Shown here: piece by piece, positions 29,772-64,000 of the stretch | Layout: the number at the start of each line of letters is the position of its first letter | Numbering within the stretch: the first letter of the stretch is position 1 | From: a virus | Virus record (IMG/VR): IMGVR_UViG_3300028416_000501 | Coordinates: 1 to 64,000 of that record | DNA: 64,000 nt | Direction: 5' to 3' (one strand) | The notes under the pieces: generated by a model | What the model was told of the DNA's origin: nothing | Databases searched by the model: none | Seen by the model: the letters and a program-made list of their open reading frames with translations, nothing else | Position numbers and translations under genes: made by a program

Positions 29772-29772
29772 T

Positions 29773-40614: not shown

Positions 40615-40617
40615 ATA
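40610..40617 (+). promoter_or_regulatory. Candidate late promoter box (GATAAATA)
   Basis: GATAAATA 30 bases before the ATG at 40648, with an AAAGGAAAGAG ribosome site between. It suggests that the MotA/TolQ-like cassette is transcribed late. Confidence 0.5.
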
Positions 40618-40647
40618 TTAATTAGTGATAAAAGGAAAGAGAACGTT

Positions 40648-43068: not shown

Positions 43069-43518
43069 ATGAACTATATTGAGATAACAGGCGGCAAAAA
43101 AAGCCAACAAGACAAGATACGCACAATGGTAGAGTTTTGTATTAAAAAACTTATGCCTCGTATGAAAACTCTTAATATTGAAGTTAAAGTTACTCGCATC
43201 AAAGGTGATGCTGAAGGCTATTGTTTGCGTGAGTCAGACAGAGATTTTGAAATTGAAGTAGATAGCAGATTACCATTGCGTAAGATGTTAGAAACAGTTG
43301 CACACGAAATGGTACATGTCAAACAGTATGCTAGGCGTGAAATGAATGACTGGCAGTACAAAGAAGTGTACTATAAATGGAAAGGAACATATGTTCCTGA
43401 TTCAACCGACTATTGGGATTTGCCTTGGGAGATTGAAGCTAACGGTAGAGAAGTTGGATTGTTTATTCGTTGGGCTCAACAGTATGGATGGGCAGGCAAA
43501 GAGTGGACACAAATTTAA
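43069..43518 (+). CDS. Zinc metalloprotease-like protein (HExxH)
   Basis: 149 aa from ATG 43069; an in-frame TTG at 43066 is the alternative. VAHEMVHVKQYARRE carries the HExxH zinc motif, and PWEIEANGREVG supplies a likely third ligand (Glu) in the E-x-x-A arrangement. It resembles SprT-like or other small phage zincins. The substrate is unknown. Confidence 0.75.
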   Translation: MNYIEITGGKKSQQDKIRTMVEFCIKKLMPRMKTLNIEVKVTRIKGDAEGYCLRESDRDFEIEVDSRLPLRKMLETVAHEMVHVKQYARREMNDWQYKEVYYKWKGTYVPDSTDYWDLPWEIEANGREVGLFIRWAQQYGWAGKEWTQI

Positions 43519-43733
43519 TTTAGTGTAACTTCTTTAACACCTTGTAGTTTTAATAAGAAATACTCCTTCTGGGAGTATTTTTTTTGAATCCAAATTGCAT
43601 GTCTTGGATCAGCACCATATTTAAATATAGTCATTTCGTAGTAATATCCAACAATTAGATTACCACTAGTCATACGTTTTGGCCACCAAGCAAACACTCT
43701 GTTAACTGTATCGGGTCTTCGTATTATTCCCAT
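43515..43733 (-). CDS. Small protein at 3' end of the minus-strand operon
   Basis: 72 aa. Its ATG shares one base with the stop of the radical SAM gene upstream (TAATG), so it is translationally coupled. Trp/Tyr-rich (RVFAWWPKRMTSGNLIVGYYYEM), predicted beta strands. A hairpin with a T tract lies within its 3' part, and it converges with the metalloprotease gene by a few bases. No family is recognised. Confidence 0.6.
   Translation of the reverse strand: MGIIRRPDTVNRVFAWWPKRMTSGNLIVGYYYEMTIFKYGADPRHAIWIQKKYSQKEYFLLKLQGVKEVTLN
43558..43585 (+). terminator. Rho-independent terminator for the plus strand
   Basis: Stem AAATACTCC (43558-43566) / GGAGTATTT (43572-43580), 5-base loop, then five T. 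It ends plus-strand transcription from the metalloprotease unit inside the coding region of the converging minus gene. Confidence 0.8.
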
Positions 43734-44899
43734 TATTTAAAAGTTTCGTCGCCTGGAAATAGAGGCATTTTTGTTCCTGCTCTACGCTTAGGAATTTTAC
43801 TATCAGCACTACTTACACATGCACCTGTTGTACATAATGCAGGACCATCAAACAACTTAAATCCTGTTTCAATGTTGCCCAAAGGTTGATCCATACAACT
43901 GTAAGAACGCTTAACACTACCATCAGGTTCACGTATAATTATGCTACGGTATCCGCTACTACATTCCCATCCTTTAAACTTATTAAAGTCAAATGCGTTG
44001 AATCGTTCTGCTTGGTCCATGTACCACGGCTCGCCATCTTCATCTCTGAATTCTACTTGCATGTGCCAAGGAACTTTTGCAGTTTGCTTTCTATATTCAT
44101 CTTCTTGATCAATTTTAAATGTAGGCTTAGGTCTTGTTACTAATTGTTTTTGTTTAGCCTTAGCTTCTGTATATCCACGTTGCGGCATTCCATTATGCAA
44201 TTTAGCTCGCATCTCATCTGTATAACCGTCTACTACTCTACTTGCAGTTGGATCACTTTGAGGCTTTAGTGTTACATTGATTCCTTGATTGTGAAAGAAC
44301 AATGCGTTTTCATAATATTCATCAAATAATTCTGGAACCATAACCATATTAATAGTTACCTGCACATCATGTTCTTGACATAGTATAAGTTTGTCTGCAA
44401 GATCTTGCATCTTCTCAACTGTGTCAACATGCTCAACATGTAAACTACATGTGATACTAGCACGGTGAAAATGGCTTGCATAATCTACATAGGTTTTAAA
44501 CCATTTCATATTACGACTACAGTTACTTGTCATGTGTACACTTGTATAGTTTGTGTTATGCACATCATCGCTTAGATGTTTCAGCATATCCAAGTACCCA
44601 GGATGAAACGTTGGTTCGCCTCCACTTAAACTAAAATGGAAACTGTTAAATCCACGTTCACGTGCTTGACGTTTAATCTCATCAATAGTTTTTAAATTTA
44701 GCTCTGTAGGTCTATGGTCTTTTCTACTGCTTCTAGCATAAGGCCAACAGTAACTACAGTTGTAGTTACAAAAGCGGCCTAGTAGCCAACTCACAGTGAA
44801 CATGTCTCTGTACAACATATTGCGTTGTCCTACACGAACTAGTTTATCGTACGGTGTTTTAGTGAAGTCGTACTCGCTCCATTTTAAATCATTTGTCAT
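43733..44899 (-). CDS. Radical SAM enzyme with C-terminal SPASM-like domain
   Basis: 388 aa, of a different subfamily from most neighbours. The core motif CNYNCSYC (C44, C48, C51) is near the start with no N-terminal twitch. SLSGGEPTFHP gives the SAM motif. A C-terminal unit (FKGWECSSGYRSI ... YSCMDQPLGNI ... CTTGACVSSAD) has five or more cysteines spaced like an auxiliary-cluster domain, and the same unit occurs alone at 47043. The substrate is unknown. Confidence 0.9.
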   Translation of the reverse strand: MTNDLKWSEYDFTKTPYDKLVRVGQRNMLYRDMFTVSWLLGRFCNYNCSYCWPYARSSRKDHRPTELNLKTIDEIKRQARERGFNSFHFSLSGGEPTFHPGYLDMLKHLSDDVHNTNYTSVHMTSNCSRNMKWFKTYVDYASHFHRASITCSLHVEHVDTVEKMQDLADKLILCQEHDVQVTINMVMVPELFDEYYENALFFHNQGINVTLKPQSDPTASRVVDGYTDEMRAKLHNGMPQRGYTEAKAKQKQLVTRPKPTFKIDQEDEYRKQTAKVPWHMQVEFRDEDGEPWYMDQAERFNAFDFNKFKGWECSSGYRSIIIREPDGSVKRSYSCMDQPLGNIETGFKLFDGPALCTTGACVSSADSKIPKRRAGTKMPLFPGDETFK

Positions 44900-45752
44900 T
44901 ATTGTAATTCTTCGTTATATAGTTTACCCATGTATTTATACCTTGCTTAGTGCTGTACATTTTCTCGTCAGGCTTAATGTTTTTAAAATCTTCTAAATTA
45001 AAATAAAAGAATGTTGTTTTTGTTTCTAACCATTTCTCAATTAAACCTGCTAATATGGAGTGTGTTTCATTTGTAAAATGTGCAGGCCTAACATCGTAAG
45101 ATGGGAACAGATCTTTATCCCATCCTAATATTGTATTTTCAAATTTAACAAGATCAAGCAATGAATGTACTTCTGGTCTTAGTATATTTTCATTTGTATT
45201 AGGATCATACCAATGAAATCCTTTTATAATCTTAGCGTCTGGTCTTAGTCTTGTAACCTTATCCAATATTAGTTTGGCAAATGTATTTTCTCTTTCTGTA
45301 AATCCATTATGCACATGAAGTTCATGCCAGTTTGCTATTTTTGAATACATATGATGTTTGTACATTGAATTGTCATCTTTGAGTTTTGCATATTTATTAG
45401 CCTCATTATTTGCCATTTCTATACTAGTCGAATGAGCATTATCATCATTTGGCCCACGATTATCTTCTTCCCAATAATCATGCATAAAGGTTAATCTATT
45501 GTTTGAATTTGTTAATACAAAGATAACTTGCTCATACTGTTGATGATACTTTTCAAACTGCATAAAACTGTAATATAAATCAGTTCCACCAAGTCCATAC
45601 GAATCCGCATCTAGTAGATCTATCCATGTTTTAAAAATACTATTATTAAATAAATTAATTTGCCTCTGAGTTTCCATGATTGATTGGTGCGGTACTATGA
45701 CTTTGCTTTCTGCAAAACTATCTCCAAATACACCTATTTTTTTACTGAACAT
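44889..45752 (-). CDS. SGNH-hydrolase-like protein
   Basis: 287 aa. KIGVFGDSFAES is the classic GDS nucleophile motif. YGLGGTDLYYSF matches the Gly block, FVLTNSNNRLTF the Asn block, and HFTNETH near the C-terminus may provide the catalytic His. It lies between radical SAM genes with 1- and 11-base junctions. Esterase or acyl transferase activity on a modified product is possible. Confidence 0.75.
   Translation of the reverse strand: MFSKKIGVFGDSFAESKVIVPHQSIMETQRQINLFNNSIFKTWIDLLDADSYGLGGTDLYYSFMQFEKYHQQYEQVIFVLTNSNNRLTFMHDYWEEDNRGPNDDNAHSTSIEMANNEANKYAKLKDDNSMYKHHMYSKIANWHELHVHNGFTERENTFAKLILDKVTRLRPDAKIIKGFHWYDPNTNENILRPEVHSLLDLVKFENTILGWDKDLFPSYDVRPAHFTNETHSILAGLIEKWLETKTTFFYFNLEDFKNIKPDEKMYSTKQGINTWVNYITKNYNNDK
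44932..44940 (-). promoter_or_regulatory. Candidate late promoter box, minus strand (TATAAATAC)
   Basis: Reads TATAAATAC on the minus strand, an exact T4 late -10 match, inside the 3' end of the SGNH gene and 32 bases before the radical SAM ATG at 44899. Confidence 0.45.
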
Positions 45753-47053
45753 TATTTTTTCTTATCCATATCTGTTATAGTTTCATTAAATTTAGTAAAT
45801 GCCTCATATTTTTTATCATGCTTGTTATTATCAATACAAGACTGTAACCAACTAATTGCACCATTGATATGTGTTTCAAACATAAACCTTCGTTTAGTTT
45901 CACGTCTTTCGGGGGTCTTTAAGCTATCAAATACCCGTTTTAAGCCGTCTATTCCAGTTTGTAGTTGTTCAGGGCTTAGTACATTAGCATGCAAGAAATC
46001 AGGCCATTGTACGCGGCTTGTATGCCAATTTACCCCTAATTCATATACAATAGCTTCAGCTGTAGCACCTAATTCCATAGCATTCATGCCACTTATACAG
46101 GTAGTTCCTTTAATAACATCTAAGTTATCAAGCTCTCGTTTAACTAATTCAATATTGCTTTTTAATAAATCCCAATCAGATCCTCTACGAATCATATGAT
46201 TAAGATCTTTGTGTCCATCAATACTAATAGTTAATTTAATACTTTTAAATTTTTTCCATAAGTCTATTACATTAGTTTTACCTAGTTTCATAATACTTAA
46301 ATTTGTACTATATTTTAATGTAACATTTTCTGGATGTTTAACACTTTCCAATACACGATAATGTATTGGATCCATTAATGGCTCACCGCCAGCAAATTCT
46401 AATTCATCAACATGTTCCATGAGTTCAACTAGGTGCCCAACAAATTTCTCATCTTTTTCATACAAGTTCATTACTCGAGACGTACGAAGGTTGTTACTAT
46501 CTACAATCTGATCAATATATTTTTGATCTCCTGCACTATAAAATTTAGAAACATTATCCCAATCTGTTACCCACTTTGAACTGTCTTTTGGCCAACACAT
46601 TCTACATTTAAAATTACATACATTACTAAGTTTTAATTCTAGTAAAGGTATTTTAAATTCTACTTCTCTGTTAATTAAATAATGCTTTACATTTTCTCTG
46701 TAAATTTCTTTATCCATTAAATCAGTAAGTCTGTTTAAACGTAAACTAACGATTTCATTATCTTCCATCTTCCAACAATTATTACATTGTGTTGGTTTTT
46801 CTCCAACAATAAGAGCATCACGTATTTCGTTCATGTATTCACTATGCCAGTAATCTTTTAAATCAAAGTCTGTATTCTTTACATTAGGATTTCCATCTTC
46901 GGGTGGTTGTGCTCTACAACAAAGTTTTATCTCACCATGTGGCATTGTACTAATATGTGAAAATGGTAATGGACAAAATGTATCCTTTGTTACAGGTAAT
47001 CCTGCTAATTTAGATTCAGCTCTATCTTTAAATGTATTGTAATTATTCTTCAT
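45752..47053 (-). CDS. Radical SAM enzyme, N-terminal twitch type
   Basis: 433 aa. N-terminal cysteines C27, C45-C46 and C90-x2-C93, then core CNFKCRMC (C146, C150, C153) and EFAGGEPLMDP. The C-terminal tail YEAFTKFNETITDMD aligns with the tails of its paralogues. It overlaps the SPASM-like gene upstream by 11 bases. The enzyme would generate a 5'-deoxyadenosyl radical; the substrate is unknown. Confidence 0.9.
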   Translation of the reverse strand: MKNNYNTFKDRAESKLAGLPVTKDTFCPLPFSHISTMPHGEIKLCCRAQPPEDGNPNVKNTDFDLKDYWHSEYMNEIRDALIVGEKPTQCNNCWKMEDNEIVSLRLNRLTDLMDKEIYRENVKHYLINREVEFKIPLLELKLSNVCNFKCRMCWPKDSSKWVTDWDNVSKFYSAGDQKYIDQIVDSNNLRTSRVMNLYEKDEKFVGHLVELMEHVDELEFAGGEPLMDPIHYRVLESVKHPENVTLKYSTNLSIMKLGKTNVIDLWKKFKSIKLTISIDGHKDLNHMIRRGSDWDLLKSNIELVKRELDNLDVIKGTTCISGMNAMELGATAEAIVYELGVNWHTSRVQWPDFLHANVLSPEQLQTGIDGLKRVFDSLKTPERRETKRRFMFETHINGAISWLQSCIDNNKHDKKYEAFTKFNETITDMDKKK

Positions 47054-47375
47054 CTTTGCCTATCCGTAATCTGTGTACGTGTTCTGGTAATGCCTTTGAT
47101 AATTGTACATCTGCAGAACAAATACATCTGGGCTTATTACATATAATAGTTTCTTTAGGCATTTCAAATCCATCATAAATATTTCCCAACTTACCGCCTA
47201 CTTTACATATAGCTCTATATACATCACCTGTATTGCTTATAGTAATATTTTGCACGCCTGCCCAACATTCCCAACCACGGAAATCATTCTCATCGCGAGC
47301 CATAACACTATTTGCATTATCTTCTTCGCTTGTACCATCCTTGTAGTGTACAATAATATTTTTAAAATTGCTCAT
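47043..47375 (-). CDS. Stand-alone SPASM-like auxiliary-cluster domain
   Basis: 110 aa with no radical SAM core. FRGWECWAGVQNITI...YRAICKVGGKLGNI...CNKPRCICSAD parallels the C-terminal unit of the enzyme at 43733 (FKGWEC...YSCMDQPLGNI...CTTGACVSSAD). It probably binds an Fe-S cluster in trans. A natural partner would be the core-only enzyme at 49528. Overlaps on both sides (14 and 11 bases) indicate coupled expression. Confidence 0.75.
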   Translation of the reverse strand: MSNFKNIIVHYKDGTSEEDNANSVMARDENDFRGWECWAGVQNITISNTGDVYRAICKVGGKLGNIYDGFEMPKETIICNKPRCICSADVQLSKALPEHVHRLRIGKDEE

Positions 47376-48597
47376 AAAATTCCTTAAATGTCTGATGGAA
47401 TTTTTCTTTTCTTATTGAATCTAATTCAAAATTTTGTTGTGTAAAATTATTCCATTCTTTTGGATCTGGTCGTCGACTATACATGTACTCCACTGCATTA
47501 GCAATCCATTTAGATTTAGTATCTCTATACTTTGTGCTGATAATATTTTTTATATGTTGAGGCATTATGTGTATAGCATGCTGGCCTACATTTACATAAT
47601 GATTGGGCGGTATGTTAGTGTTTCCTTCTATAAAATCTGCAAATTCTAAATTAGAAAATTCTTTATAAATTTCTTCTAAATAGAATATATTAAATACGCT
47701 TATAGCAGGGTCTAAAGTAGAAAAATATTTCTCAACATTGTTTAATTTTTGAAATTTAACTAGATTATTTCTTACTTCTTCCCAATTAGCTAATTTACGC
47801 TGGTAGTTAAATCTCTCATCAATATCATCTATACTTAATGCAAAGTTTACTTTCTTAAAATTATTATATAGGTCAAAGTTTTCTTCAGTAGGAAAGTATG
47901 TTCCGTTTGTATTGTATCCTATTGTTATTTTACTTGTATCTATGTTTGGATGATCAACTAATGCCTGTATTAGTTGAAAATGCTCGGGAACCATAAAAGG
48001 TTCGCCTCCCATAAAATGTAAAAACTCTATCGATTCCATTTCATTAATGTCGTTCCAAATTTTAGGATCATCTATCCAATTACAAGATTGTGTATATTTA
48101 AATGCATTTGAATCTTTAAATTTTACTCCAGGCTGATCTAATTCTGCCGTGTCTTTTGTCCAACTACTACTACCATGCACACCGCATATTCTACATTTTA
48201 AGTTACATCTATTTCCTGGTTTTATTTCTAACCATTTTAATTTCATATCTGGATATTTTCCAGTTTGCATAAATTCTTCAGTTGTGCCTCTGCTCCATGC
48301 ACTCGTTGAGAATTTTGCTCTAATTTCTGGATCTTCCCAACATTGGTGACATGCAGGGTGCTTTTCGTTACGTTTAAAACTCTCCATAAATTCAAATCTT
48401 ACTGGATCGTTGTATACTTCTTGTATTGTTTTATTACTAATATTTAAATCAAAAGGATCTCCCATGCAGCAAGGTCTTATTGATCCATTAGTTTCAACTG
48501 CCATATGCATAAATGGCAAAGCACAAAAGTTATTACCTGGTTTCTTCAGCCATGTTTTTAAATTATCTGCCACTGTCAAATCCTTTGCTAGTTTCAT
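47362..48597 (-). CDS. Radical SAM enzyme, N-terminal twitch type
   Basis: 411 aa. C25, C43-C44 and C83-x2-C86 form the auxiliary set, CNLKCRIC (C131, C135, C138) the core, and HFMGGEPFM the SAM motif. The C-terminus (WNNFTQQNFELDSIRK...FKEFYEQF) is a version of the shared tail. The start overlaps the upstream SPASM gene by 35 bases. Confidence 0.9.
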   Translation of the reverse strand: MKLAKDLTVADNLKTWLKKPGNNFCALPFMHMAVETNGSIRPCCMGDPFDLNISNKTIQEVYNDPVRFEFMESFKRNEKHPACHQCWEDPEIRAKFSTSAWSRGTTEEFMQTGKYPDMKLKWLEIKPGNRCNLKCRICGVHGSSSWTKDTAELDQPGVKFKDSNAFKYTQSCNWIDDPKIWNDINEMESIEFLHFMGGEPFMVPEHFQLIQALVDHPNIDTSKITIGYNTNGTYFPTEENFDLYNNFKKVNFALSIDDIDERFNYQRKLANWEEVRNNLVKFQKLNNVEKYFSTLDPAISVFNIFYLEEIYKEFSNLEFADFIEGNTNIPPNHYVNVGQHAIHIMPQHIKNIISTKYRDTKSKWIANAVEYMYSRRPDPKEWNNFTQQNFELDSIRKEKFHQTFKEFYEQF

Positions 48598-48919
48598 TAT
48601 AACCTATACCTGGATGATCTTGATTTTTCTTTAGACATAATCGTAAACATGGTTCTGGCAAATCTAATGTTTCATGTCCCTTTAGTATTGCGTTGAATAC
48701 ATCTGATTCATATATTTCTGCCATTGTACTAGTTCTTATATTTAACTTTGACATATCTAAATTATTTTCTTCAGCCCATGCTTCTAAATATTTCCAGTTG
48801 CAACGGGATCCATACAAATTGCAAGGCCTAACATTACCTGAGGATCCTAATTGAATAGGAAATTTCCCACTGTCATCCTTTCTGCATTTAGGGTCTATTA
48901 ATGGGTTAATTTTATACAT
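48563..48919 (-). CDS. SPASM domain encoded separately from its radical SAM core
   Basis: 118 aa from ATG 48919 (a longer frame to 48964 is inside the upstream gene). Cysteines occur in PLIDPKCRKDD, SGNVRPCNLYGSRC and PCLRLCLKK, the layout of a C-terminal SPASM domain (C...G-x-V-R-P-C...C-x-x-x-C). It overlaps the radical SAM core gene by 8 bases in another frame. The two would make one ordinary SPASM enzyme if fused. Confidence 0.8.
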   Translation of the reverse strand: MYKINPLIDPKCRKDDSGKFPIQLGSSGNVRPCNLYGSRCNWKYLEAWAEENNLDMSKLNIRTSTMAEIYESDVFNAILKGHETLDLPEPCLRLCLKKNQDHPGIGYNETSKGFDSGR

Positions 48920-49535
48920 ATGGATTATTCTCCCCTGGTAGCATTCCATAATTATCTTCACCACGCAAACTTACTACAGGATTAAATTTATCAAATCCCA
49001 AATCCATTGCCATTTTCCTAGCAGTATCAACTTGATGTTCGTTGTATTTAAAAATTAAGAATTTCCATTCTAGTTTGGGTCTTCTTTCTTTTGGTATACT
49101 AGTCATCCATTTTACTCCAGTCATTATTTGTTTCCATTTTGAATTTATTCTGTATATATGATTAGTATCTTCTAGACCATCTATACTAAAAGTAAACATA
49201 GAACCTTTCCAATCTTGCTCTGCAGCCGCTTGCCAAAACTTTTCTGGCTTTGCACTGCCATTTGTATGGACTTCTAAGTATTTTCCTGCTTTAATAAAAT
49301 AGTCACAAATTTCTAAAAAATCTGGGTGGTATATTGCATCACCGTAACAACCAACTATCATATACTTGCGGAAGGCTGTAGTATCTGCTATCTTAAATAA
49401 TAACTCTTTATCTAAGTGTCCTGCATCCCATATTTGCTTGCCTTCTGGGTCATGCATTCTCGAACAAGCTGGACATTGTAACACACATTTACTAGTTATT
49501 TCGATTTCTAATTCATCTTTATGTTGATTAAGCAT
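48912..49535 (-). CDS. Radical SAM core protein lacking its SPASM domain
   Basis: 207 aa. CVLQCPAC (C17, C21, C24) binds the SAM cluster. The usual GGEP is replaced by GCYGDAIYHPDF, a form seen in some SPASM-type enzymes. FTFSIDGLEDTNHIYR matches the later strands. The chain ends where an auxiliary domain should begin, and the next gene supplies it in a different frame. Confidence 0.8.
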   Translation of the reverse strand: MLNQHKDELEIEITSKCVLQCPACSRMHDPEGKQIWDAGHLDKELLFKIADTTAFRKYMIVGCYGDAIYHPDFLEICDYFIKAGKYLEVHTNGSAKPEKFWQAAAEQDWKGSMFTFSIDGLEDTNHIYRINSKWKQIMTGVKWMTSIPKERRPKLEWKFLIFKYNEHQVDTARKMAMDLGFDKFNPVVSLRGEDNYGMLPGENNPYV

Positions 49536-50244
49536 TTTCTCTCAGCCAACTTTCTTCTTCTACACTATAGTATTGTCCTGCAAACTTTTCAGTTTCACTA
49601 TGTGTGGGATGAATTCCTAACATGCCGTCGGCATATGGTTTATTCCAACCTGTACGATCCATGTTAACACGTGGTCGAATTTTTCTTATAGTGTATTCAA
49701 CACCACATTCTTTTAGTTCGTCTATGATTTCTTTCCACTGTACTAAGTGTCCTGGCAATGCCATAATATGAACATGCATACCTTTATATTCATCTTTAGC
49801 TCTATATTCTTGTATTTCTTTCCACATACCTGTGATGTTATTAATAACTTTCTCATGATATGCAAATTCAAAGTGATAACTTATAATAACATAATGTAAG
49901 TATGGCAATGCTTTTTTATATATCTTAGGCGGTGGACTTCCATTAGTTGTTACACTACATCTGTATACGCCATTTTCTTTGGCATATTTTAACATGTCAA
50001 TAAACTGTGGATGTACAAACGGCTCTCCGCCTGTAAAACTAATTTTAATCTTTTTGCCATTTGATGCTTCTACTATTTTATCTATTGTATTTGTATACAC
50101 TTCCCAACTCATATGTTCGCTAGTTTTATTGTGTAGTTCATTACCACAATAACTACAGTTGTAATTGCAACGTTTGCCTAAGTTCCATTCAACTCTAAGC
50201 AGTTCGTCTTTTGGTGCGTGATTATCTTCTAAGGCTACTAGCAT
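49528..50244 (-). CDS. Radical SAM enzyme, core only
   Basis: 238 aa. CNYNCSYC (C26, C30, C33) and SFTGGEPFVHPQF (72-75). It aligns with the first ~240 residues of the enzyme at 43733 but ends before the C-terminal cysteine domain, and it has no N-terminal twitch. It may use the stand-alone domain at 47043. The substrate is unknown. Confidence 0.85.
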   Translation of the reverse strand: MLVALEDNHAPKDELLRVEWNLGKRCNYNCSYCGNELHNKTSEHMSWEVYTNTIDKIVEASNGKKIKISFTGGEPFVHPQFIDMLKYAKENGVYRCSVTTNGSPPPKIYKKALPYLHYVIISYHFEFAYHEKVINNITGMWKEIQEYRAKDEYKGMHVHIMALPGHLVQWKEIIDELKECGVEYTIRKIRPRVNMDRTGWNKPYADGMLGIHPTHSETEKFAGQYYSVEEESWLRENA

Positions 50245-51416
50245 TAAAAATATTCCTTTAGTTGAGGCACTGCGTTTAATACACTGTCTCCTCGCATTTT
50301 ATCTAAGTCGTTTGTAAAGTTGATAAATGTTTCCCATAGCTCTGGGTTAAATGTTCTGGTCTTCATACTCTCTACTAGCTTGTCAAAATCATCAAATAGA
50401 GATAAGTTTTTAATTGCTTGATCTCGTAAATCATCTGGTAAGTTCATTGGACTTAAATATGCTGGTTTATTACAAATAGTGGTGAAACTACTGTTTGCAC
50501 TTACTTTACTATATTTATCTTCCATTTCGTGAAGGAAAAAATGTAAGTCTGGTAAGTTAAAAACATTATAATTCTGTAGTGTTACATTAAACATAATCTG
50601 TACATTGTCTAATTCGTTATACATTGCTAATGTTTTCTCAAAATCTTCTAATTGATATTTGCCACCTCTGATGTATCTATATAGCTCTCCTGTGCCTTCT
50701 ATACTAAAACATATACTAACACGTTTAAACTGTTTTAGCAAGTTTAATATTTTAGGATTAACTACTGTACCATTTGTTGTATAAAATAATTCTACATCAG
50801 TCATATCTTCTTCAATAAGCCATTGTAGGAATTGATTGTGATGTTTTGCCATCATGGGCTCACCACCTTTAAAGTCTATGCGTTTTACATCTTTTAGATG
50901 CGGTAGCATATTGCGTAAATCTTCTAATCCATATTGTTGTAATGGAACTGGATTACTATTTTTCTCATATCGTTTGTCTATTTTAGCAAGTGCTAGTTCT
51001 TCTTCAAACCAACTGTTACTTGCCCAACTTCCACACATACGACATTTTAAGTTACACACATTTGATAAGTTAATGTCTGCTTGATAGAACTTAGGGTTAG
51101 GAACTTTATATGTGTCTGGTGTATTGCCATTTATAAAGTCTGCATCAGATTTCATAAACTTCTTATTAAACCATAAGCGTCTACTTTGACCTACCAAATC
51201 TTCTCTTTCCCAACAACTATTACAAGCACTAGGTTGTATACCTTTTAAAAAATCTTTACGTAATTCTCGCATACGCTCACTGTCAAAGTTTTCCATGATA
51301 GTATCATGTTCAGTGTTTGGCCTGCGTCCTTTGTTGCTGAACTGACAACAAGGTTTTATATCACCATTTGCACTTAGTGTAATTGCATGCCAGGGCATGT
51401 AACAAAATTTATTCAT
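50244..51416 (-). CDS. Radical SAM enzyme, N-terminal twitch type
   Basis: 390 aa from ATG 51416. I chose this over 51455 because it gives the recurrent 8-base overlap and starts directly at MNKFCYMPWH, as in paralogues. C5, C23-C24 and C65-x2-C68 form the auxiliary set, CNLKCRMC (C121, C125, C128) the core, and DFKGGEPMM the SAM motif. The tail FTNDLDKMRGDSVLNAVPQL is the clearest form of the shared C-terminal motif. Confidence 0.9.
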   Translation of the reverse strand: MNKFCYMPWHAITLSANGDIKPCCQFSNKGRRPNTEHDTIMENFDSERMRELRKDFLKGIQPSACNSCWEREDLVGQSRRLWFNKKFMKSDADFINGNTPDTYKVPNPKFYQADINLSNVCNLKCRMCGSWASNSWFEEELALAKIDKRYEKNSNPVPLQQYGLEDLRNMLPHLKDVKRIDFKGGEPMMAKHHNQFLQWLIEEDMTDVELFYTTNGTVVNPKILNLLKQFKRVSICFSIEGTGELYRYIRGGKYQLEDFEKTLAMYNELDNVQIMFNVTLQNYNVFNLPDLHFFLHEMEDKYSKVSANSSFTTICNKPAYLSPMNLPDDLRDQAIKNLSLFDDFDKLVESMKTRTFNPELWETFINFTNDLDKMRGDSVLNAVPQLKEYF

Positions 51417-55381: not shown

Positions 55382-56114
55382 AATTCTCGTTCACTTTATT
55401 TTTAAATTGATCACTTGGACCACCATCGAATATCATATGTATTCGAGGCTCATCGCTGCGGTTCCATACTGCATGATTGTGTCCTGTATTAATCTTTACT
55501 ACAAGACCGTTTTCATATGGCAATTTACCATATTCTTCTATTACTAAGTTGCAGTCTGTTGGATTGTTAATAGCAACATTAGTTGCGCCAAGTCCTGCTA
55601 ATTTATCTGTATCCTTGTGTGGCATAATCCAACCACCTGGCAATACTGCCATAAATCTAACACGGGTAAATTTATTATACAGCATTTCGTCTTGCATCCA
55701 TTGTTTCGTTTTAGGACAAAACTTTGCAATATCTGTCCAATCTGATAACTCATCTTCGGCACTATCTGGCAATCCATAATCTTCTGGGCAATTAGTATGT
55801 ACACTGCTCATACCATGAATACATGCACTTAACCAGCCGCCACTTCCTACTGCTCTATGAACTGTAAAACATTCTGCTTCTAATAGTGCAATTGCTTCTT
55901 TATGTATATCTTGCCACGGTACTGATATGTCTGGAACAGTAACCCACGGAACACATGTATTGTCCATTATATTATTAATGTCATTACATGTAAGTTGCAC
56001 GTTATCTGCAAGAGCAGGGTTTGTGTTAAAATTCTCCCATACTTCAAAGTATTCCTTTGTTTCGTTGTTAGCTTCTTCCCACCATGCTAAATTATTATAA
56101 TGTATCATATCCAT
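55359..56114 (-). CDS. 2-Oxoglutarate/Fe(II) oxygenase, aspartyl/asparaginyl hydroxylase type
   Basis: 251 aa. GGWIMPHKDTDK carries the H-x-D iron ligands, and NTGHNHAVWNRSDEPRIHMIF carries the distal His and an Arg for 2-oxoglutarate. The spacing matches the beta-hydroxylase family, as in the gene at 11317. Placement inside the radical SAM operon suggests that it acts on the same substrate. Confidence 0.8.
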   Translation of the reverse strand: MDMIHYNNLAWWEEANNETKEYFEVWENFNTNPALADNVQLTCNDINNIMDNTCVPWVTVPDISVPWQDIHKEAIALLEAECFTVHRAVGSGGWLSACIHGMSSVHTNCPEDYGLPDSAEDELSDWTDIAKFCPKTKQWMQDEMLYNKFTRVRFMAVLPGGWIMPHKDTDKLAGLGATNVAINNPTDCNLVIEEYGKLPYENGLVVKINTGHNHAVWNRSDEPRIHMIFDGGPSDQFKNKVNENYAKMFDV

Positions 56115-57475
56115 TTTAGCCTTCCAATATTAGTCATATCGTAGTAGCTTCCATTCATGTTGCCATTTAGATAAACTTTATCTGAGATACTTTGTACCTT
56201 TGTTATGTATTTAATACCGTTAACTGTAGTACTAAGTCCTTTACTAAAATAGTTTGATTCATAGTTCCAAATGTTAGTACACTGTAGTAAAACTGTTTTA
56301 TTATGTGGTAACATGTTTACAATGGAATCATAATCTTCTACAATATTAACTACTTCAAACTGATGTTCTAAATTTTGTATCTTGCGCCAAAGTGTTAACC
56401 ATTGCTCTTTGCTATCAAAACTGTCTAAAAACTTTTCCCATGTTCCATATCCATTTATAAATTGTCCATTAAAGTTTAACCTATGTTTATTTGTTTCAAA
56501 GAAGGTAGGAAAGTCTATTCCATCCCATTCGCTTACTAGTATCTCTAACCATTGCACTGCATGTGGATTGTAATCAGTCCATATAACCATTTCCATGTTA
56601 TCAATACTATTTTCTATATACTTAAATTGATGAAGTCCACTACATGGACATACGGCTACTTGCAAATCTGATACATCAGTATGCGGTACAGTTTCCGTGT
56701 TTGTTACATATAGATTAGTAAATTCTTGTATTTTAAATTCTAACAATGCTCTCTTATCTGGATAATTTTCTCTTATATCGTATACAACTTCAGGATCGGT
56801 ATATTTTTTAAATAATTCATTTTCAGTAAATTCAATATCATCTTCGGGATACGAACATTCTTTGTTGCTTCTTATATTATAATCTAAATTAAAAATTGTT
56901 AAGCCTTGATCGATGGATGTTCTTAGGAACTGATCAAATATAGATCTCTCTGGTTGAACATTTATAAGACTGCCATCTAACAATGGCTTTATCCACTTGG
57001 GTGTATAATCATCGTGCATATGTTCTGTACTAGTAGTATACTCATACAACTTAATTTTAGATAAAAACTTGTATGTGTCTAAATTAACTATGACGCACTG
57101 TGTATGAAAATGTGGATCACTTCTGCTAGGGCGATCTATTATATGTCCTGCACAGCCCCATTTTTCTTTATTCCATTCAGTTACTGATTTTAAAATTTCA
57201 TTATCAATTTCTGGGTCACTTGGCCAACTGCCTTCTGCCCATATTACTGCTACTTTGAAGTTTAACTGTTTTAAATCATTAAGTAAAAAGTCTAGATTAT
57301 CATTACTGCAATCTATAACAAAAGAACCATCAGTGTTTAAGTCTACATTAATATTTGTTATTGATTTTAACACTGATACATAATCATCTGAAGCATTTTC
57401 AAGTTCGCTCACAATTGAACGTTCCATAGTTATATGGCATATCTCTTTACCTCTAATTGTAAGTTTTGGTAACAT
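56105..57475 (-). CDS. Large unrecognised protein, paralogue of next gene
   Basis: 456 aa, no known domain seen. VAVIWAEGSWPSDPEIDNEI, VIWTDYNPHAVQWLEIL, WDGIDFPTFFE and a WEKFLDSF...WLTLWRKIQNLEHQFEVV stretch all have counterparts in the protein at 57475, so the two are diverged duplicates. The TDYNP segment recalls a nucleotide- or SAM-binding acidic loop, but this is not conclusive. It is coupled with the oxygenase gene by a 10-base overlap. Confidence 0.7.
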   Translation of the reverse strand: MLPKLTIRGKEICHITMERSIVSELENASDDYVSVLKSITNINVDLNTDGSFVIDCSNDNLDFLLNDLKQLNFKVAVIWAEGSWPSDPEIDNEILKSVTEWNKEKWGCAGHIIDRPSRSDPHFHTQCVIVNLDTYKFLSKIKLYEYTTSTEHMHDDYTPKWIKPLLDGSLINVQPERSIFDQFLRTSIDQGLTIFNLDYNIRSNKECSYPEDDIEFTENELFKKYTDPEVVYDIRENYPDKRALLEFKIQEFTNLYVTNTETVPHTDVSDLQVAVCPCSGLHQFKYIENSIDNMEMVIWTDYNPHAVQWLEILVSEWDGIDFPTFFETNKHRLNFNGQFINGYGTWEKFLDSFDSKEQWLTLWRKIQNLEHQFEVVNIVEDYDSIVNMLPHNKTVLLQCTNIWNYESNYFSKGLSTTVNGIKYITKVQSISDKVYLNGNMNGSYYDMTNIGRLKWI

Positions 57476-58761
57476 TAAATTCCTTGACCTATACTATCAT
57501 TTGTGCTGTATCCTAGTACCCATTTAACATCGCAAGTTAAATCATTATCATTCGGGTCTGTTCCTGAAAACCAGCACTTATCTATTTGTTGTAGTCTTAC
57601 CATTAATTCAGCAAAACTGCGTTCTAGTGTAAACGGTTCAACTATTACTTTGAGTAGCACATAACTGTATATGTTGCTTGCCCAAAAGAATGTACTTGAA
57701 TTGTTGTCTAGTTTGTCTGTAATTTCTTTATGATTGTTTACAAGGTCTACTTCTAAGAACTCGTGTTTACATAACTTTACTTGCATCCAAAAGTCTAGCC
57801 AATTGTCCATTCCACCGAACTGTTCTACTATATTTAACCAATCTTTATCTACCTGTTTTAGCAGTAACGAATTAGCGTCTGGATTGTCTTCGCACCATTG
57901 TTTAACAAACGCTGGATAGTCAAATCCGTCCCATTCTTCCACCATTAGACGCTTAAATTTAACGCTGTAAGCGTCAAAATCATACCATACGAACTTTGTA
58001 CTGTCTATATCAATACCGTACGTATATGCGTAGTATAGAAGCTTAAAACCAGCCGTTACACCCACATATTGCTCAAATACAGTGTGTTTTATAGCATCTG
58101 CTACTGTTGGACTACTAGGCTCTGTATTAACAAAATACACCGGGCTACTGGGTATATTCTTGCGTTTAATAATAACTCTAGCACCTCTGGCAATTGTGTG
58201 ATCTGTATACTTCTTATTCATTAACCCATTTAAAAAGTTAACTGGGTCTGTTTTTGGAGCACCTACTACAATGTTTCTTTCTATAGTTTTGCTTAATTCT
58301 ACTGTTGACTCACCTAGCCAATTTTCTGCCCAGAAATCGTAATCTCCAAAGTTTGGTGCTTTTGCAGGCCAGGCAATAAATTCGTCTATGTTTAGTAACA
58401 TTAAACTATCTACATATTTTGGGTGTACTGCTGTAATCCAATCTTTCTTTTCTAAACGATTTATATAAGTCAATATCTTCTTTTCAATTCCATCTGTTTT
58501 AGGCCAGCATCCATCAAACCAGAATGCAACATACTTGTGTCCCATCTTTCTAACATGTTCAATCCATTCGATGCTACTAGTATTATACAGGTTAACTATA
58601 CTAGATGTCAAGTGATTATCGCACTCTACTTGTTGCAATAACAGTAGCTTTTGTTTGAGTGTTTGATGTGATGCTAAATGTGTGTTTTTTGGTATAAACA
58701 CATTTACTATTTCACAGTCGCTTACAAACTGATAATCCCAATCTTTTTGCCCTTTAATCAT
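57475..58761 (-). CDS. Large unrecognised protein, paralogue of previous gene
   Basis: 428 aa. Counterpart blocks: VAFWFDGCWPKTDGIEKKIL, FVWYDFDAYSVKFKRLM, WDGFDYPAFVK and WLDFWMQVKLCKHEFLEVDL. An N-terminal alpha/beta part resembles a glycosyltransferase-like or substrate-recognition unit (MLLNIDEFIAWP), but I cannot assign a family. The two genes share a stop/start base. Confidence 0.7.
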   Translation of the reverse strand: MIKGQKDWDYQFVSDCEIVNVFIPKNTHLASHQTLKQKLLLLQQVECDNHLTSSIVNLYNTSSIEWIEHVRKMGHKYVAFWFDGCWPKTDGIEKKILTYINRLEKKDWITAVHPKYVDSLMLLNIDEFIAWPAKAPNFGDYDFWAENWLGESTVELSKTIERNIVVGAPKTDPVNFLNGLMNKKYTDHTIARGARVIIKRKNIPSSPVYFVNTEPSSPTVADAIKHTVFEQYVGVTAGFKLLYYAYTYGIDIDSTKFVWYDFDAYSVKFKRLMVEEWDGFDYPAFVKQWCEDNPDANSLLLKQVDKDWLNIVEQFGGMDNWLDFWMQVKLCKHEFLEVDLVNNHKEITDKLDNNSSTFFWASNIYSYVLLKVIVEPFTLERSFAELMVRLQQIDKCWFSGTDPNDNDLTCDVKWVLGYSTNDSIGQGI

Positions 58762-59073: not shown

Positions 59074-59086
59074 TTACCTTCTTCTT

Positions 59087-59845
59087 TCATTTGTATTTGT
59101 ATTCATCAGCAATGGCGATAATAGTATCCCATGATAATTCAACTATGCTTTTAATCATAGGGTGTGCTATTTGATTAAGATGATTATATTGATCAATTAT
59201 AGGATCAAATAATAATTTATGATTTACTGTTACATGGTAGTCAAAAAATTGTAGTGATGTATAATTCTTTTGTAGTAGTTCGCCAGCATTAACCCATATT
59301 AAGTTATTATGTGTTTTCATATACTCTTGTTCCATGAGTGTTTTGACCCTTATACGATGACACATTCTTTCGAGACTAATTTTTGTGTTATAATCAACAT
59401 CTTCCGCAGCTTCGTCACTAAATTCCATCATTAAGAAATGAAACCTATTAGTAGGCTGATTTTTCATATCAAGATATGTACTATAAAAATTACCACTAAC
59501 ATCACAAATTACATTACTAATAACATCCGCTATGCAATTAACATAAAATCCAGAGCTTTTATAATCAATTACCATACTATTATCAGTACTGTATCTAATA
59601 TGCTCATTGTAGTATTTCAGTTCTTTGGTATTGTCAAAATGCTTATATGTGTCTCCGTGATGTGTGTAATAGTCATCACTGTGTCGTACATATAATCCAA
59701 AAATGCCTGGATAAAATTCCCAAAGATCCTTGCCATGATTCTCTGCTCTAAGTACTGTGAGTAATCTATTTGTAAGTTCATTCAAACTATGTCCTGGGCC
59801 AACTACAATATCTCTATCAGCTAGATTTTTGTTCCAAATAGTCAT
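59087..59845 (-). CDS. Hypothetical protein in radical SAM operon, 252 aa
   Basis: ATGA overlap with the radical SAM gene upstream. Segments VGPGHSLNELTNRLLTVLRA, DDYYTHHGDTYKHFD and FLMMEFSDEAAED show His/Asp-rich blocks but no recognised signature. The family is unknown. It may be a substrate-handling partner. Confidence 0.6.
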   Translation of the reverse strand: MTIWNKNLADRDIVVGPGHSLNELTNRLLTVLRAENHGKDLWEFYPGIFGLYVRHSDDYYTHHGDTYKHFDNTKELKYYNEHIRYSTDNSMVIDYKSSGFYVNCIADVISNVICDVSGNFYSTYLDMKNQPTNRFHFLMMEFSDEAAEDVDYNTKISLERMCHRIRVKTLMEQEYMKTHNNLIWVNAGELLQKNYTSLQFFDYHVTVNHKLLFDPIIDQYNHLNQIAHPMIKSIVELSWDTIIAIADEYKYK

Positions 59846-61080
59846 TTATTTTCTGCCTTCATTAATCTGTTGTGTACTGATTCCATATTTTCAATTTCCA
59901 GTCCTAGATGCTCTCTAACTAAAGATTTTAGAGAAATTGACATTGGGTATCTCATTTCTATATCTCTGTTATATTTTCTCATTTTTGCATAGTCTCGAAT
60001 ATTTGGTTGATTGCTTTCTATATAATTAATAAATCTCTGCATCTCAGGGTGCCTATCTAACGCACCTTTTAACTTATTAATAATTGCTTCTCTGTATTCT
60101 TCGGGCCAAACACTAGGTGTTAAGTATCTGGGTGTTTGTAGTACGTTTGCAGTAATAAATCTTAAATCTACTTCACTGTCTTTCCAAAAGTCATAAAACT
60201 CGGGCATATGAAATACGTTATGTGATTGTACTGTAATGCCTGCTGCAACATCAATAGTAGGATAACTATTTAATGCTAACATGTTTGCGTATACATTGTC
60301 CCAATCTCCATCCCTACGTATAAAATTATATACATCACCTACGCCGTCCATACTTATTTTAATATTAACACTTTTAAATTCATTCCAAATTTTAATTAAA
60401 TCATATTGTTTAAATTTTATATAACTTAGATTACTAGCATACCGTAGTTTTATTTTACTTTTTAGATGCAGTGGAATTGACTCTAACAAGTCATAATGTT
60501 CTTTATTAATAATTGGTTCACCACCAGTGAACTGTAATGTATGCACTGACTCCCATAATTCCGGCCATTCGTTTAAACTATTAAATAACGTTGTTGGCCT
60601 TAGTAGCTTAGTTTCGTGTCCATCTTTTTGATATTTTGTTATAATATCTAAATCTTTTACACGTTTATAACTACTGTGAGTACTACACATTATACATTTT
60701 AGATTACAAAAGTTACTGACTTTAAGTTCAATCCATTTAGGACTATTACTAACACTATAGTCATCATTAACTTCAATGACTTCTGAAAATTCATTCCAGT
60801 TGTCCTTTTCCCATTGTTGACGGTTGCTTACAATGCCACTATCTTCGTTATGCCAACACACTTCACAGCGTTCTGGTCTTTCGTCCTCTGCCAAAGCACG
60901 TCTTAGCTCTTTATAGTTTTCGTTGTTCCAGCTTTCAAGAGCAGTCTCACCTGGATTATTCAATGGGGTTTCTTGCGCCTCACAACAAGGCACCATGTCT
61001 CCACCGGCACTTCCGTAAATGTGCATAAATGGTAACATACAAAATGTTTTACTCTTTTTTAGTTTATCTTTATCTATCAT
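59842..61080 (-). CDS. Radical SAM enzyme, N-terminal twitch type
   Basis: 412 aa. C14, C32-C33 and C72-x2-C75 (CEVCWHNEDSGIVSNR), core CNLKCIMC (C125, C129, C132), QFTGGEPII. It overlaps the radical SAM gene upstream by 11 bases. The C-terminal tail is extended (SLKSLVREHLGLEIENM) relative to its paralogues. Confidence 0.9.
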   Translation of the reverse strand: MIDKDKLKKSKTFCMLPFMHIYGSAGGDMVPCCEAQETPLNNPGETALESWNNENYKELRRALAEDERPERCEVCWHNEDSGIVSNRQQWEKDNWNEFSEVIEVNDDYSVSNSPKWIELKVSNFCNLKCIMCSTHSSYKRVKDLDIITKYQKDGHETKLLRPTTLFNSLNEWPELWESVHTLQFTGGEPIINKEHYDLLESIPLHLKSKIKLRYASNLSYIKFKQYDLIKIWNEFKSVNIKISMDGVGDVYNFIRRDGDWDNVYANMLALNSYPTIDVAAGITVQSHNVFHMPEFYDFWKDSEVDLRFITANVLQTPRYLTPSVWPEEYREAIINKLKGALDRHPEMQRFINYIESNQPNIRDYAKMRKYNRDIEMRYPMSISLKSLVREHLGLEIENMESVHNRLMKAENK

Positions 61081-62206
61081 TGTATTTTAGTATATTCTCA
61101 AACTTAGGTGCAAGATTTATATCTTGTCCTCTATGTGTTAAAATTCTATTTAACTCTTTTATATACTGCTCACTATTATCTTGTTGATTATCTGTAGTTG
61201 CACACATATTTTTTAATAACTTATAGCTAGGTGTAAACTTACCAGCATTCTTATTAAATCCCATGTACTGTTGATCTATTGTTAATTCTAATGTACGCTT
61301 AAACCAATTTGGCCAATGCTCTACACTCATATAATGAGGCTCATATACTGTTTGTAGCATTACTCCAATGCCTTTATGCACTCTTGCCCAATGTATAAAC
61401 TCATGTAGCTGTGGAGCGTTAATAACGCTTACAGTGGTGGCTGTAGCTATTTTTAAGCGTCCTGTAGCGTCTTTTACTTCTATCCACTTGTCAAGTGTAG
61501 CCTCTATTGTTTCCCACTTACTAGGGTAACGTAGAAGGTCGTTTGTAGTGCCCACACCATCAATACTAGGACTTAGTTGTATACGCTTAAACTTTAATAA
61601 TGCATCAAGTTCTAATTTCTTTGGAAACCATGTACAGTTTGTAAATATCTCTAAGTCGATCTGTCCTGCTATTCCACTGTCCGCTAATCTAACGACTAGG
61701 TTTAAAAACTGCCTATGTAAGAACGGCTCGCCACCTGTTACTTTAATAAACTTAACATGCTTTAATTTGTCTAAATCTAAATTATCTAAATCATATTCTT
61801 GTACTTCTTTTAATTTTTTAATCTTCTCTGGAGAACTAATGCCTAATGCAAGTTCATCTTTGTCCCACGTATGACTAAACTCTGCTCCACAACTTAAACA
61901 TGCTAAGTTGCAAAGTCTACCTACTGTTATTTCTAAATACTCTAAACGTACTGTATCTGTAAAGTCATCAAAGAATTCATCAGCTTCAGTTCTCATACTG
62001 CTACCTTTCATTTCTTCGTCAGACTTACATTTATAACATCCAGGGTGCCATTCATTACGCATCATAGTTTTGCGTATCTCGTTAAAGCTATTATCTTCTG
62101 GTAAAAATCTTGTATGAAATCTACAACATGGTGTTGCAGGTTGTCCGTGCATAAGCATTTCTGCTTTGAACGGGTAAGCACATGCGTTAGCAGGTAACTT
62201 ATTCAT
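61070..62206 (-). CDS. Radical SAM enzyme, N-terminal twitch type
   Basis: 378 aa. C9, C27-C28 and C57-x2-C60, core CNLACLSC (C99, C103, C106), KVTGGEPFL. CNLACxxC is shared with the partial enzyme at 63097, so these two may be closest relatives. It overlaps the aminotransferase-like gene by 8 bases. Confidence 0.9.
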   Translation of the reverse strand: MNKLPANACAYPFKAEMLMHGQPATPCCRFHTRFLPEDNSFNEIRKTMMRNEWHPGCYKCKSDEEMKGSSMRTEADEFFDDFTDTVRLEYLEITVGRLCNLACLSCGAEFSHTWDKDELALGISSPEKIKKLKEVQEYDLDNLDLDKLKHVKFIKVTGGEPFLHRQFLNLVVRLADSGIAGQIDLEIFTNCTWFPKKLELDALLKFKRIQLSPSIDGVGTTNDLLRYPSKWETIEATLDKWIEVKDATGRLKIATATTVSVINAPQLHEFIHWARVHKGIGVMLQTVYEPHYMSVEHWPNWFKRTLELTIDQQYMGFNKNAGKFTPSYKLLKNMCATTDNQQDNSEQYIKELNRILTHRGQDINLAPKFENILKYNDR

Positions 62207-63104
62207 AAAAATTTCCTTTGTTTTTGTAACGCTTTAGTGCTTTTGCAATATTAATTCTGTTGTATATTCCATCTCTATGAAACTCATCATACTGTGGACC
62301 TTTAGGTGCTAATGCAATATGTATGGTGTTTGTCATTTCAAATCCATAATGATCGCATACTGCTACATGCGAGTCCATATACTTTTTAGGAATAGTATCT
62401 GGTCCAAACTTTTCCATAAGCCTATTAGCAATTGCAGTGTTGAGATGGTTTCCATGATTCCAATCTGTTTGTACTTCTAAACTACCTTCGTTGATGCGTG
62501 AGAATGTAATACCTGCACGCCAGTTACCACAACTTAATCCTTTAGTAGTACTAAATGCTACCATCTTAATACAAGGTTCATCTAAGTTTATATCTATGTC
62601 AAAGCAAGTACCAAACCATGCACAATCAACTAACACTGGAATGTCTAATTGATTACATATTTTAATCATATCGTCAAACCGCTCTGGAACTCTACCAGTG
62701 CCACTAAATGGTACACTTACTAATACTGCATCACCTTGTGTTAAGCCCTTGTCATCAATACTGTCACTCCATTCTAAATTTGTGTGTATCAATGCATCTC
62801 TGTTATATGGATACTCACCTCTAAATGTTTTGAGGTTGAGGTTGTTCACTGAACAATAGTAGTGCCACCAATCTAGTGTCTGTGTAGTGCCTACACTTGC
62901 AAACCTATAAGGAAATGCATCAAGTCCAGTAAAGTTGTTTAGTTTACTGCTTTCAATCCAGCCTTGATATCTATCTAACATAATGTTAGACTCGTCTGCC
63001 AGTGTTGATATATCTATGTTAGGAAAGAATGTTTCATTGAGGTGATCCATGTATGGTTGGTTCCATACACTGTTTCCTGTCTTTCCAAAATCTGGGTTAC
63101 TCAT
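62199..63104 (-). CDS. PLP-dependent aminotransferase-like protein (fold type I), short
   Basis: 301 aa, versus about 400 in typical members. PVLVDCAWFGTCFDI holds the Asp that would contact the PLP ring nitrogen, and VAFSTTKGLSCGNWRAG has the Schiff-base Lys followed by an Arg loop. The missing part is mostly at the C-terminal small domain. It could transaminate an intermediate made by the flanking radical SAM enzymes. Confidence 0.75.
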   Translation of the reverse strand: MSNPDFGKTGNSVWNQPYMDHLNETFFPNIDISTLADESNIMLDRYQGWIESSKLNNFTGLDAFPYRFASVGTTQTLDWWHYYCSVNNLNLKTFRGEYPYNRDALIHTNLEWSDSIDDKGLTQGDAVLVSVPFSGTGRVPERFDDMIKICNQLDIPVLVDCAWFGTCFDIDINLDEPCIKMVAFSTTKGLSCGNWRAGITFSRINEGSLEVQTDWNHGNHLNTAIANRLMEKFGPDTIPKKYMDSHVAVCDHYGFEMTNTIHIALAPKGPQYDEFHRDGIYNRINIAKALKRYKNKGNFYE

Positions 63105-64000
63105 TGTATAATTTTAACTCCTTTATTAGTGCAAAGGTATCTGTGCCACGTAATCTGTCTAAGTCTTTTGTATACTTAACAAACCACTTCCATTGCTTTT
63201 CTTGTTCTGCTTCATCTACTTCAACTTGCAATCCATCTCTGATAGCATGAATACCTGTTTGATAATGTATCTCGTCTGCATGATAGCTTCCCTTAGGCCA
63301 AATACTTTGATCTGGTATCTGTAGTAATTTATCATACATAATGTACTTTAACACCTCCGGCATGTATGCAATATTGAGGTATGTAGGATTTACTACTACG
63401 TTGCTCATGCTTATACTTGCTCTGTGCATATGTTTCTCTTTAAACCAATTCCACACTTTGTCTAAGCCAAATACATTTGTTAGCATAACTGTTACTGCAA
63501 ACACAACTTCAATGTTAGGATATGTGTAAAACTTTTCTATGTTTTCTTCTAACTGTTCAAATGTATACGAACCGCCTCGTACTACACTGTATAATTCATC
63601 TACTGCTTCAATACTAATAAGCAATTCAATATGTTTAAAGTGTTTAAATATCTCTTGGAAGTCATCATCAAACACTGTAGCATTTGTACTAATATCTAGC
63701 ATAATGTTTGATGCTAGTCCTTGGTCAATAAACCATTGTAATATTGCTTTACAACTTTCGTCATATAAGGGCTCTCCGCCTCTTAGTGCTACCCACTGTA
63801 GGTTGCGAAAGTATTCTGGATCAGCAAACAAGTTATCAAGGAATGACATGTCTTCAACTCCATGATATCCTATTTGTGCATTTTTCCAATAGTCCGGTTT
63901 TTCTTTGTTTAGTTTCTTTCCATCCTTCGTCCAACCGGTACTAACAAATGGATTACAATGAATACATGCTAGGTTACACTTGTTGCTGATTGTAAAGTCC
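63097..64000 (-). CDS. Radical SAM enzyme, 5' end beyond window
   Basis: The frame is open to the right edge. It reads CNLACIHC within the first coding bases (about 63937-63960) and ALRGGEPLYD near 63780. The C-terminal tail WFVKYTKDLDRLRGTDTFALI matches the shared motif. The N-terminal auxiliary cysteines would lie outside the window. It overlaps the aminotransferase-like gene by 8 bases. Confidence 0.9.
   Translation of the reverse strand, partial: DFTISNKCNLACIHCNPFVSTGWTKDGKKLNKEKPDYWKNAQIGYHGVEDMSFLDNLFADPEYFRNLQWVALRGGEPLYDESCKAILQWFIDQGLASNIMLDISTNATVFDDDFQEIFKHFKHIELLISIEAVDELYSVVRGGSYTFEQLEENIEKFYTYPNIEVVFAVTVMLTNVFGLDKVWNWFKEKHMHRASISMSNVVVNPTYLNIAYMPEVLKYIMYDKLLQIPDQSIWPKGSYHADEIHYQTGIHAIRDGLQVEVDEAEQEKQWKWFVKYTKDLDRLRGTDTFALIKELKLYNE

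Follow-up and report, generated by a model that had tools for sequence, protein, structure and literature searches.

The array of radical S-adenosylmethionine (radical SAM, rSAM) genes in the viral record IMGVR_UViG_3300028416_000501 is best explained, at a probability of roughly 55%, as one transferable biosynthetic pathway of many steps, exchanged as a block and sustained by a kit of support genes. The record is a linear IMG/VR sequence of 79,053 b, of which bases 1-64000 form the window analysed here; genes are named by their first coordinate. Some 15-18 rSAM enzymes, each different and none able to stand in for another, mostly of an N-terminal-twitch type together with one split enzyme, would act in series, partnered by an amidinotransferase-fold protein, a pyridoxal phosphate (PLP) enzyme, 2-oxoglutarate-oxygenase-like proteins and two GT-A-like proteins, and the pathway block would have been exchanged between jumbo-type phages and Bdellovibrionota chromosomes, in either direction. 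Distinct, conserved and non-redundant enzymes that move as a block point to such a serial pathway. Virus and bacterium seem to share a multi-step pathway, since predatory Bdellovibrio-like bacteria have most of the rSAM set of this large, uncultured phage in their chromosomes.

Composition and conservation of the array

Fifteen rSAM genes lie in the window, at the places given in a preliminary description of this DNA made from its letters alone: three on the plus strand (7109..8287, 8274..9500 and 19045..20343, the last with a likely ATG start at 19099) and twelve on the minus strand (43733..44899, 45752..47053, 47362..48597, 48912..49535, 49528..50244, 50244..51455, 51969..53147, 53116..54339, 54326..55381, 59842..61080, 61070..62206 and 63097..64347). 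The minus-strand operon crosses the window edge at 64000, as that description had it, and continues to record position 70737, with three further rSAM genes (64347-65459, 67525-68778 and 69313-70737) that bring the record to 18 places, 17 of them above the PF04055 cut-off in the genome search. All 18 match PF04055 at E<0.001 and carry CxxxCxxC, the fifteen in the window included, and with matches reaching E 1e-125 chance is excluded. A GGEP-type motif, previously ascribed to all fifteen, is present in most, with 48912 in the window and 64347 beyond it being of GD type. By motif, PF04055 and the fold match of 53116, the members belong to the radical SAM superfamily, and SAM cleavage is predicted.

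A shared cysteine layout (C, CC and CxxC before the core), earlier put at twelve genes or more, occurs in exactly 12 genes of the window and in 14 of the whole record. The same 14, and none of the other four, exceed the 170-bit cut-off of NF033640 (NCBIfam, twitch domain-containing radical SAM protein; hereafter N_Twi), at 195-413 bits, which confirms a single homologous subfamily among 14 of the 18. Within the window the scores are 199 bits for 7109 (392 aa, CNLSCVMC), 365 for 8274 (408 aa), 240 for 19045, 298 for 45752, 272 for 47362, 316 for 50244, 231 for 51969, 383 for 53116, 195 for 54326, 314 for 59842, 223 for 61070 and 253 for 63097. In the N_Twi alignment the twitch cysteines C11, C81 and C84 are invariant, and C29 and C30 nearly so. 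The AlphaFold model of 53116, the sole rSAM protein modelled (pLDDT 84.6), matches the folds of SkfB, anSME, SuiB, viperin and MoaA with probability 1.00 and TM 0.3-0.5. The other four genes (28-46 bits) are of two types, CNYNCSYC/GGEP (43733, with a Cys-rich C-terminal domain and a PF04055 match, and 49528) and GD type (48912, with the motif CVLQCPAC, and 64347).

Two members, 48912 (PF04055 35 bits) and 49528 (57 bits, without a C-terminal domain), are short cores. The latter aligns to residues 32-112 of 43733, and the small gene 47043..47375 (minus strand) aligns to residues 282-371 of the same protein (E 4e-13); since the two align to opposite ends of 43733, they look like one enzyme in two pieces, 47043 probably being the detached, SPASM-like C-terminal domain that partners 49528. 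Their orthologs adjoin in a bacterial chromosome described below, and the apparent split into core and separate C-terminal domain is conserved from phage to bacterium. Beside 48912 lies a second detached SPASM-like piece, 48563..48964 (minus strand; weak PF13186 match, E 0.005). A sequencing frameshift was considered for the 48912/48563 pair and is unlikely, because the same pair of open reading frames recurs in three related contigs (G003, G005 and G008).

A search with 53116 retrieved fifteen viral contigs related to this one, near-duplicates among them, and N_Twi matches are present in all fifteen. In the eleven contigs examined gene by gene there are 7-26 rSAM genes each, and the operon is syntenic. 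The phage nature of the group follows from PHROGs matches to DNA polymerase, clamp loader and endolysin families, together with a terminase in two members (G011 and G015), and the array is phage-encoded, as first described; the group's DNA polymerase B is ~48% identical to those of the jumbo phages Phosso and Atu_ph07. A search for the T4 Gp23 capsid protein gave no match, and its positive control gave none either. Across the 17 rSAM genes tested in the relatives examined, dN/dS is 0.04-0.33, and this purifying selection bears out the earlier claim that the genes have been retained.

Bacterial counterpart and origin of the set

The cellular relatives found are mostly Bdellovibrionota. Because no part of a distant paralog alignment was sufficiently conserved to scan the collections with, another alignment (A2) served instead, which biases the cellular hits towards its query. 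N_Twi genes above the cut-off occur in 45 of 144 Bdellovibrionota genomes (up to 37 places in a single genome) against 3 of 150 genomes of a control phylum, that of a Sphingomonas genome. One Bdellovibrionota genome (G019) holds an 876-aa gene (C47:66447-69077) with two N_Twi matches in one reading frame.

The clearest counterpart is a Bdellovibrionia chromosome (G016) in which 21 genes of the array have reciprocal best hits, reciprocity having been tested against the fetched stretches only. Eighteen of these fall in a 29-kb main cluster (C1:745468-774898) and three in a second locus (C7:145017-149896), where a 474-aa rSAM is 62% identical. Among the rSAM pairs are 8274 (C1:756736, 40% identity), 43733 (C7:148736, 62%), 45752 (43%), 47362 (33%), 50244 (43%), 59842 (38%) and 61070 (36%), and the set extends to the amidinotransferase relative (44%), the PLP-fold protein (38%), the Asp-hydroxylase, the detached domain 47043 (57%) and the GT-like genes, whose two pairs are weak (about 50 bits). 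The gene order 50244-49528-47043-45752 is preserved. A mis-binned phage or prophage is unlikely, because on the 916,837-b contig the cluster is followed by rpoD and dnaG, 5-7 kb downstream, and preceded by panB/panC, about 16 kb upstream. Nor did any virion gene come to notice around the cluster, although no systematic search for one was made. The bacterial clusters additionally hold GT2 glycosyltransferases and PP-loop (QueC-like) genes.

How such a set arose was addressed with a 253-sequence tree. The phage-specific clades that the preliminary description proposed to look for exist in part, as 15 of the 18 genes have a phage-ortholog clade of their own and the other three share one. A Bdellovibrionota gene is the immediate sister of ten phage clades, nine with local support of 0.72-1.0 and one unsupported, and for 69313, 53116 and 43733 the sister gene lies on contigs of marine metagenome-assembled genomes (L104, L124) that are possibly viral themselves. 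A smaller tree, built with a mixture model, places 10 of the 14 phage N_Twi genes in (starred) clades that combine phage and bacterium. The placement of 7109, 19045, 51969 and 54326, on long branches, is unsure.

These results bear directly on the earlier proposal of repeated duplication within the phage, by which the phage would have retained copies of one enzyme in order to make large amounts of a product. That the genes form a single homologous subfamily in many copies speaks for it. Paralogs within a genome, however, are about 29% identical (median of best matches 27-31%), whereas orthologs between phages are stable one-to-one at about 45-98%; the bacterial orthologs are interleaved with the phage genes; and the approximately unbiased (AU) test rejects a single phage clade (p=1.9e-37) and also one clade for the bacterial genome (p=5.9e-14). 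In-phage duplication is rejected on these grounds, and duplication for yield is highly improbable. Nor does it follow that something is made in quantity, for the paralogs are non-redundant and each is conserved, which suggests many different steps. Low paralog identity, conserved orthologs and a shared bacterial set together argue for a many-step pathway rather than one enzyme copied for yield.

Proposed support genes, partners and product

The main new observation is a set of genes that plausibly supports the rSAM enzymes. On the plus strand of the window lie a SUF-associated DUF59/SufT-like gene for iron–sulphur (Fe-S) assembly (29743..30075, likely start 29773; PF01883 1e-17, TIGR02945 7e-33, below cut-off), the ferredoxin FdxA as possible electron donor (30077..30430; NF045490 150 bits, above cut-off), an NfuA-like Fe-S carrier with a NifU C-terminal domain (30741..31058; PF01106 4e-20; in 7 of 14 records), adenine phosphoribosyltransferase (APRT; 31953..32477; NF002636 159 bits, above cut-off), an A-type Fe-S carrier of ErpA/SufA/IscA-like kind (32474..32872; TIGR00049 73 bits, above cut-off) and a ribose-phosphate diphosphokinase for the supply of phosphoribosyl pyrophosphate (PRPP) (36027..36992; NF002320 453 bits, above cut-off). 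Beyond the window, a putative MTAN-type nucleosidase gene (record 68780-69316) sits in the operon, flanked on both sides by rSAM genes, with PDB MTAN matches to 3e-16 and invariant MTAN-type residues E130 and D153. A SAM synthetase (MetK; TIGR01034, 430 bits) is found in 9 of 14 records, 15-22 kb past the operon, and in every record reaching far enough; the present record ends before that point. An M17 leucyl aminopeptidase (28422-29771; PF00883 5e-113) stands beside the Fe-S genes in only some relatives, and a three-gene block of membrane proteins, ExbB/MotA-like (40648-42300), is conserved in relatives.

5'-Deoxyadenosine is both a by-product and an inhibitor of rSAM enzymes (PMC8102628). 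The kit may keep many rSAM enzymes turning over in the infected cell: the SAM synthetase of the relatives would supply SAM, the carriers and assembly factors clusters, and the ferredoxin electrons, while the operon nucleosidase would destroy inhibitory 5'-deoxyadenosine, and APRT with PRPP synthetase would recover the adenine. From a nucleosidase inside the operon, with SAM synthetase, Fe-S and electron-transfer genes not far off, one would expect the rSAM enzymes to carry a heavy flux in infected cells.

A different account, that the support genes have nothing to do with the array and are ordinary boosters of the host's supply of Fe-S, purines and SAM, is unlikely but deserves serious weight. 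Fe-S assembly genes and ferredoxins in marine viromes have been reported as stress genes (PMC8940887), APRT and PRPP synthetase act in nucleotide salvage, and MetK stands beside a QueE/QueD-like pair. Yet the nucleosidase lies inside the operon in all nine records that hold the neighbouring 474-aa rSAM, the entire combination co-occurs, and relatives of the kit are scarce elsewhere in phages (among 50,697 phage records, 7 for the nucleosidase, 8 for FdxA and 11 for the A-type carrier). Two of the nucleosidase hits carry the label Acinetobacter phage MD-2021a (CAKLQH020000009.1 and CAKLQF020000013.1); the former is a bacterial chromosome contig with ileS, lspA and 5S rRNA, and records of this kind make host genes look more frequent in phages than they are. 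Several points weigh against a kit-sustained pathway. The score of the nucleosidase falls short of the NCBIfam MTAN cut-offs, and the bacterial cluster regions examined lack the gene; MetK, which adjoins the QueE/QueD-like pair, is no rarity among phage records, with 136 hits (some on bacterial contigs); apart from the nucleosidase, the kit genes are separated from the array by ~7-22 kb and might meet other needs; and not all kit genes are seen in all relatives, whose contigs are fragments. No array member, moreover, has an established product, substrate or enzyme activity. The pair itself, recognised by inspection in G001 as QueD-like (38301-39647) and QueE-like (39694-40791), directly precedes the SAM synthetase there and likewise in relatives; the QueE-like gene has no NCBIfam QueE match at 1e-20. 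The pair suggests that 7-deazaguanine modification of DNA makes use of rSAM chemistry as well.

Several neighbouring genes bear on the type of product. On the minus strand are an aspartyl/asparaginyl hydroxylase family gene (55359..56114; PF05118 2e-12, above cut-off), a GT-A-like gene with a Rossmann-like part (57475..58761), its paralog by alignment (56105..57475) and a PLP aminotransferase-fold gene (62199..63104; PF00155 E 0.007, below cut-off) whose candidate Schiff-base Lys188 is invariant across aligned relatives; for the PLP and GT-like families no usable PDB sequence match was obtained. The model of 57475 (pLDDT 81) matches glycosyltransferases in Foldseek over its first half (probability 0.99-1.0, E about 1e-3). 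Beyond the window, an amidinotransferase relative (record 65459-66544) matches HsvA, SxtG, StrB1 and AGAT to 3e-30 and retains the His and Cys of the Asp-His-Cys triad; that it works like AGAT is possible, and membership of the catalytic family is not claimed. Two of these assignments carry counter-evidence: His164 occupies the position of the catalytic AGAT Asp254 in all eight phage proteins, so that the triad fails, and the GT-A call is a partial fold match to a model of pTM 0.63, for a sequence with no Pfam or PDB match. By inspection, an SDR/epimerase-like gene (51409..51972, minus strand; no Pfam match) is 70-97% identical in nine relatives and 36% in the G017 cluster, and three SGNH-hydrolase-like genes, possible acyl or sugar esterases with no Pfam match, lie in the window (25636-26340, 37457-38248 and 44889-45752, the last on the minus strand, with a GDSF motif only and absent from some relatives). 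A 481-aa gene of related contig G005 (44007-45452), between array and SAM synthetase, likewise has the look of a flavin-dependent tryptophan halogenase (GGGTSGWWTA start).

The GT-A-like proteins, the amidinotransferase relative and the PLP enzyme favour, tentatively, a chemically unusual glycan or glycoconjugate on the surface of the infected cell. Its chief competitor, somewhat doubtful in our estimation, is the modification of a peptide, virion protein or host protein by maturases, including those of ribosomally synthesised and post-translationally modified peptides. Most characterised SPASM/twitch rSAM enzymes are peptide or protein maturases, as are the closest solved folds (SkfB, anSME and SuiB), and the Asp/Asn-hydroxylase and JmjC-like neighbours (the latter label by inspection) could act on protein; but the fold matches are partial, no gene for a precursor peptide was recognised in the array's vicinity (no systematic search of small open reading frames being made), and the amidinotransferase, PLP and GT-like neighbours better suit small-molecule or glycan chemistry. 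Viperin-like chemistry, making chain-terminating nucleotides against competing phages, draws on viperin among the fold hits of 53116 and on weak matches of all 18 genes to PADLOC pVip models (best 1e-18). Most MoaA-like rSAM models score alike here, the curated viperin model NF038283 (cut-off 180 bits) gives the member shown 36 bits and no member an E below 1.6e-17, a single viperin would do, and viperins are not known to have an N-terminal twitch; the matches are generic and weak, and we have set this defence reading aside as scarcely credible.

A bolder proposal, offered with reserve, is that the phages carry a nearly self-sufficient radical-SAM factory, combining SAM synthesis, Fe-S delivery, an electron donor, by-product removal, adenine recovery and at least 15 different radical steps, and that its product is a new class of radical-modified compound which predatory Bdellovibrionota make as well. 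Arrays of rSAM genes in phages have been on record since 2010, none with an assigned function; Bdellovibrionota, which have this array's counterpart in the chromosome and may be open to gene removal and metabolomics, make the phages' use of many radical enzymes testable.

Comparison with known systems

A literature search, with most subscription papers and preprints outside its coverage, found no paper on the array, the kit or the bacterial clusters. Although 14 of the 18 array genes exceed the NF033640 cut-off, the same search found no functional study, 18-gene array or support kit for that family. The precedent is set by Campylobacter phages CP220 and CPt10, which have 11-12 rSAM genes per genome, with a five-rSAM cluster that contains a glycine-amidinotransferase relative and two nucleotide-sugar transferases and is thought to be exchanged as a block (PMC2853527). 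An rSAM cluster with an amidinotransferase relative and sugar transferases is thus common to both systems, as a functional parallel only: the Campylobacter phage enzymes are of types other than N_Twi (this array's models give them 57 bits at most), the genes are fewer, no nucleosidase relative was found in these phages, and no bacterial counterpart cluster is described. Pelagimyophages, in which rSAM cassettes of the host-recognition region are mentioned in passing, share the association of such cassettes with glycosyltransferases in a hypervariable phage region (PMC7029224). At the level of single enzymes, AGAT, StrB1, SxtG and HsvA share the active-site His and Cys with the phage amidinotransferase relatives and differ from them at the AGAT Asp254 position. 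The chromosomal N_Twi clusters of Bdellovibrionota differ in their GT2 and PP-loop genes and, in those examined, in lacking the nucleosidase, and they hold an orthologous rSAM set together with the amidinotransferase relative, PLP, Asp-hydroxylase, detached-domain and GT-like genes.

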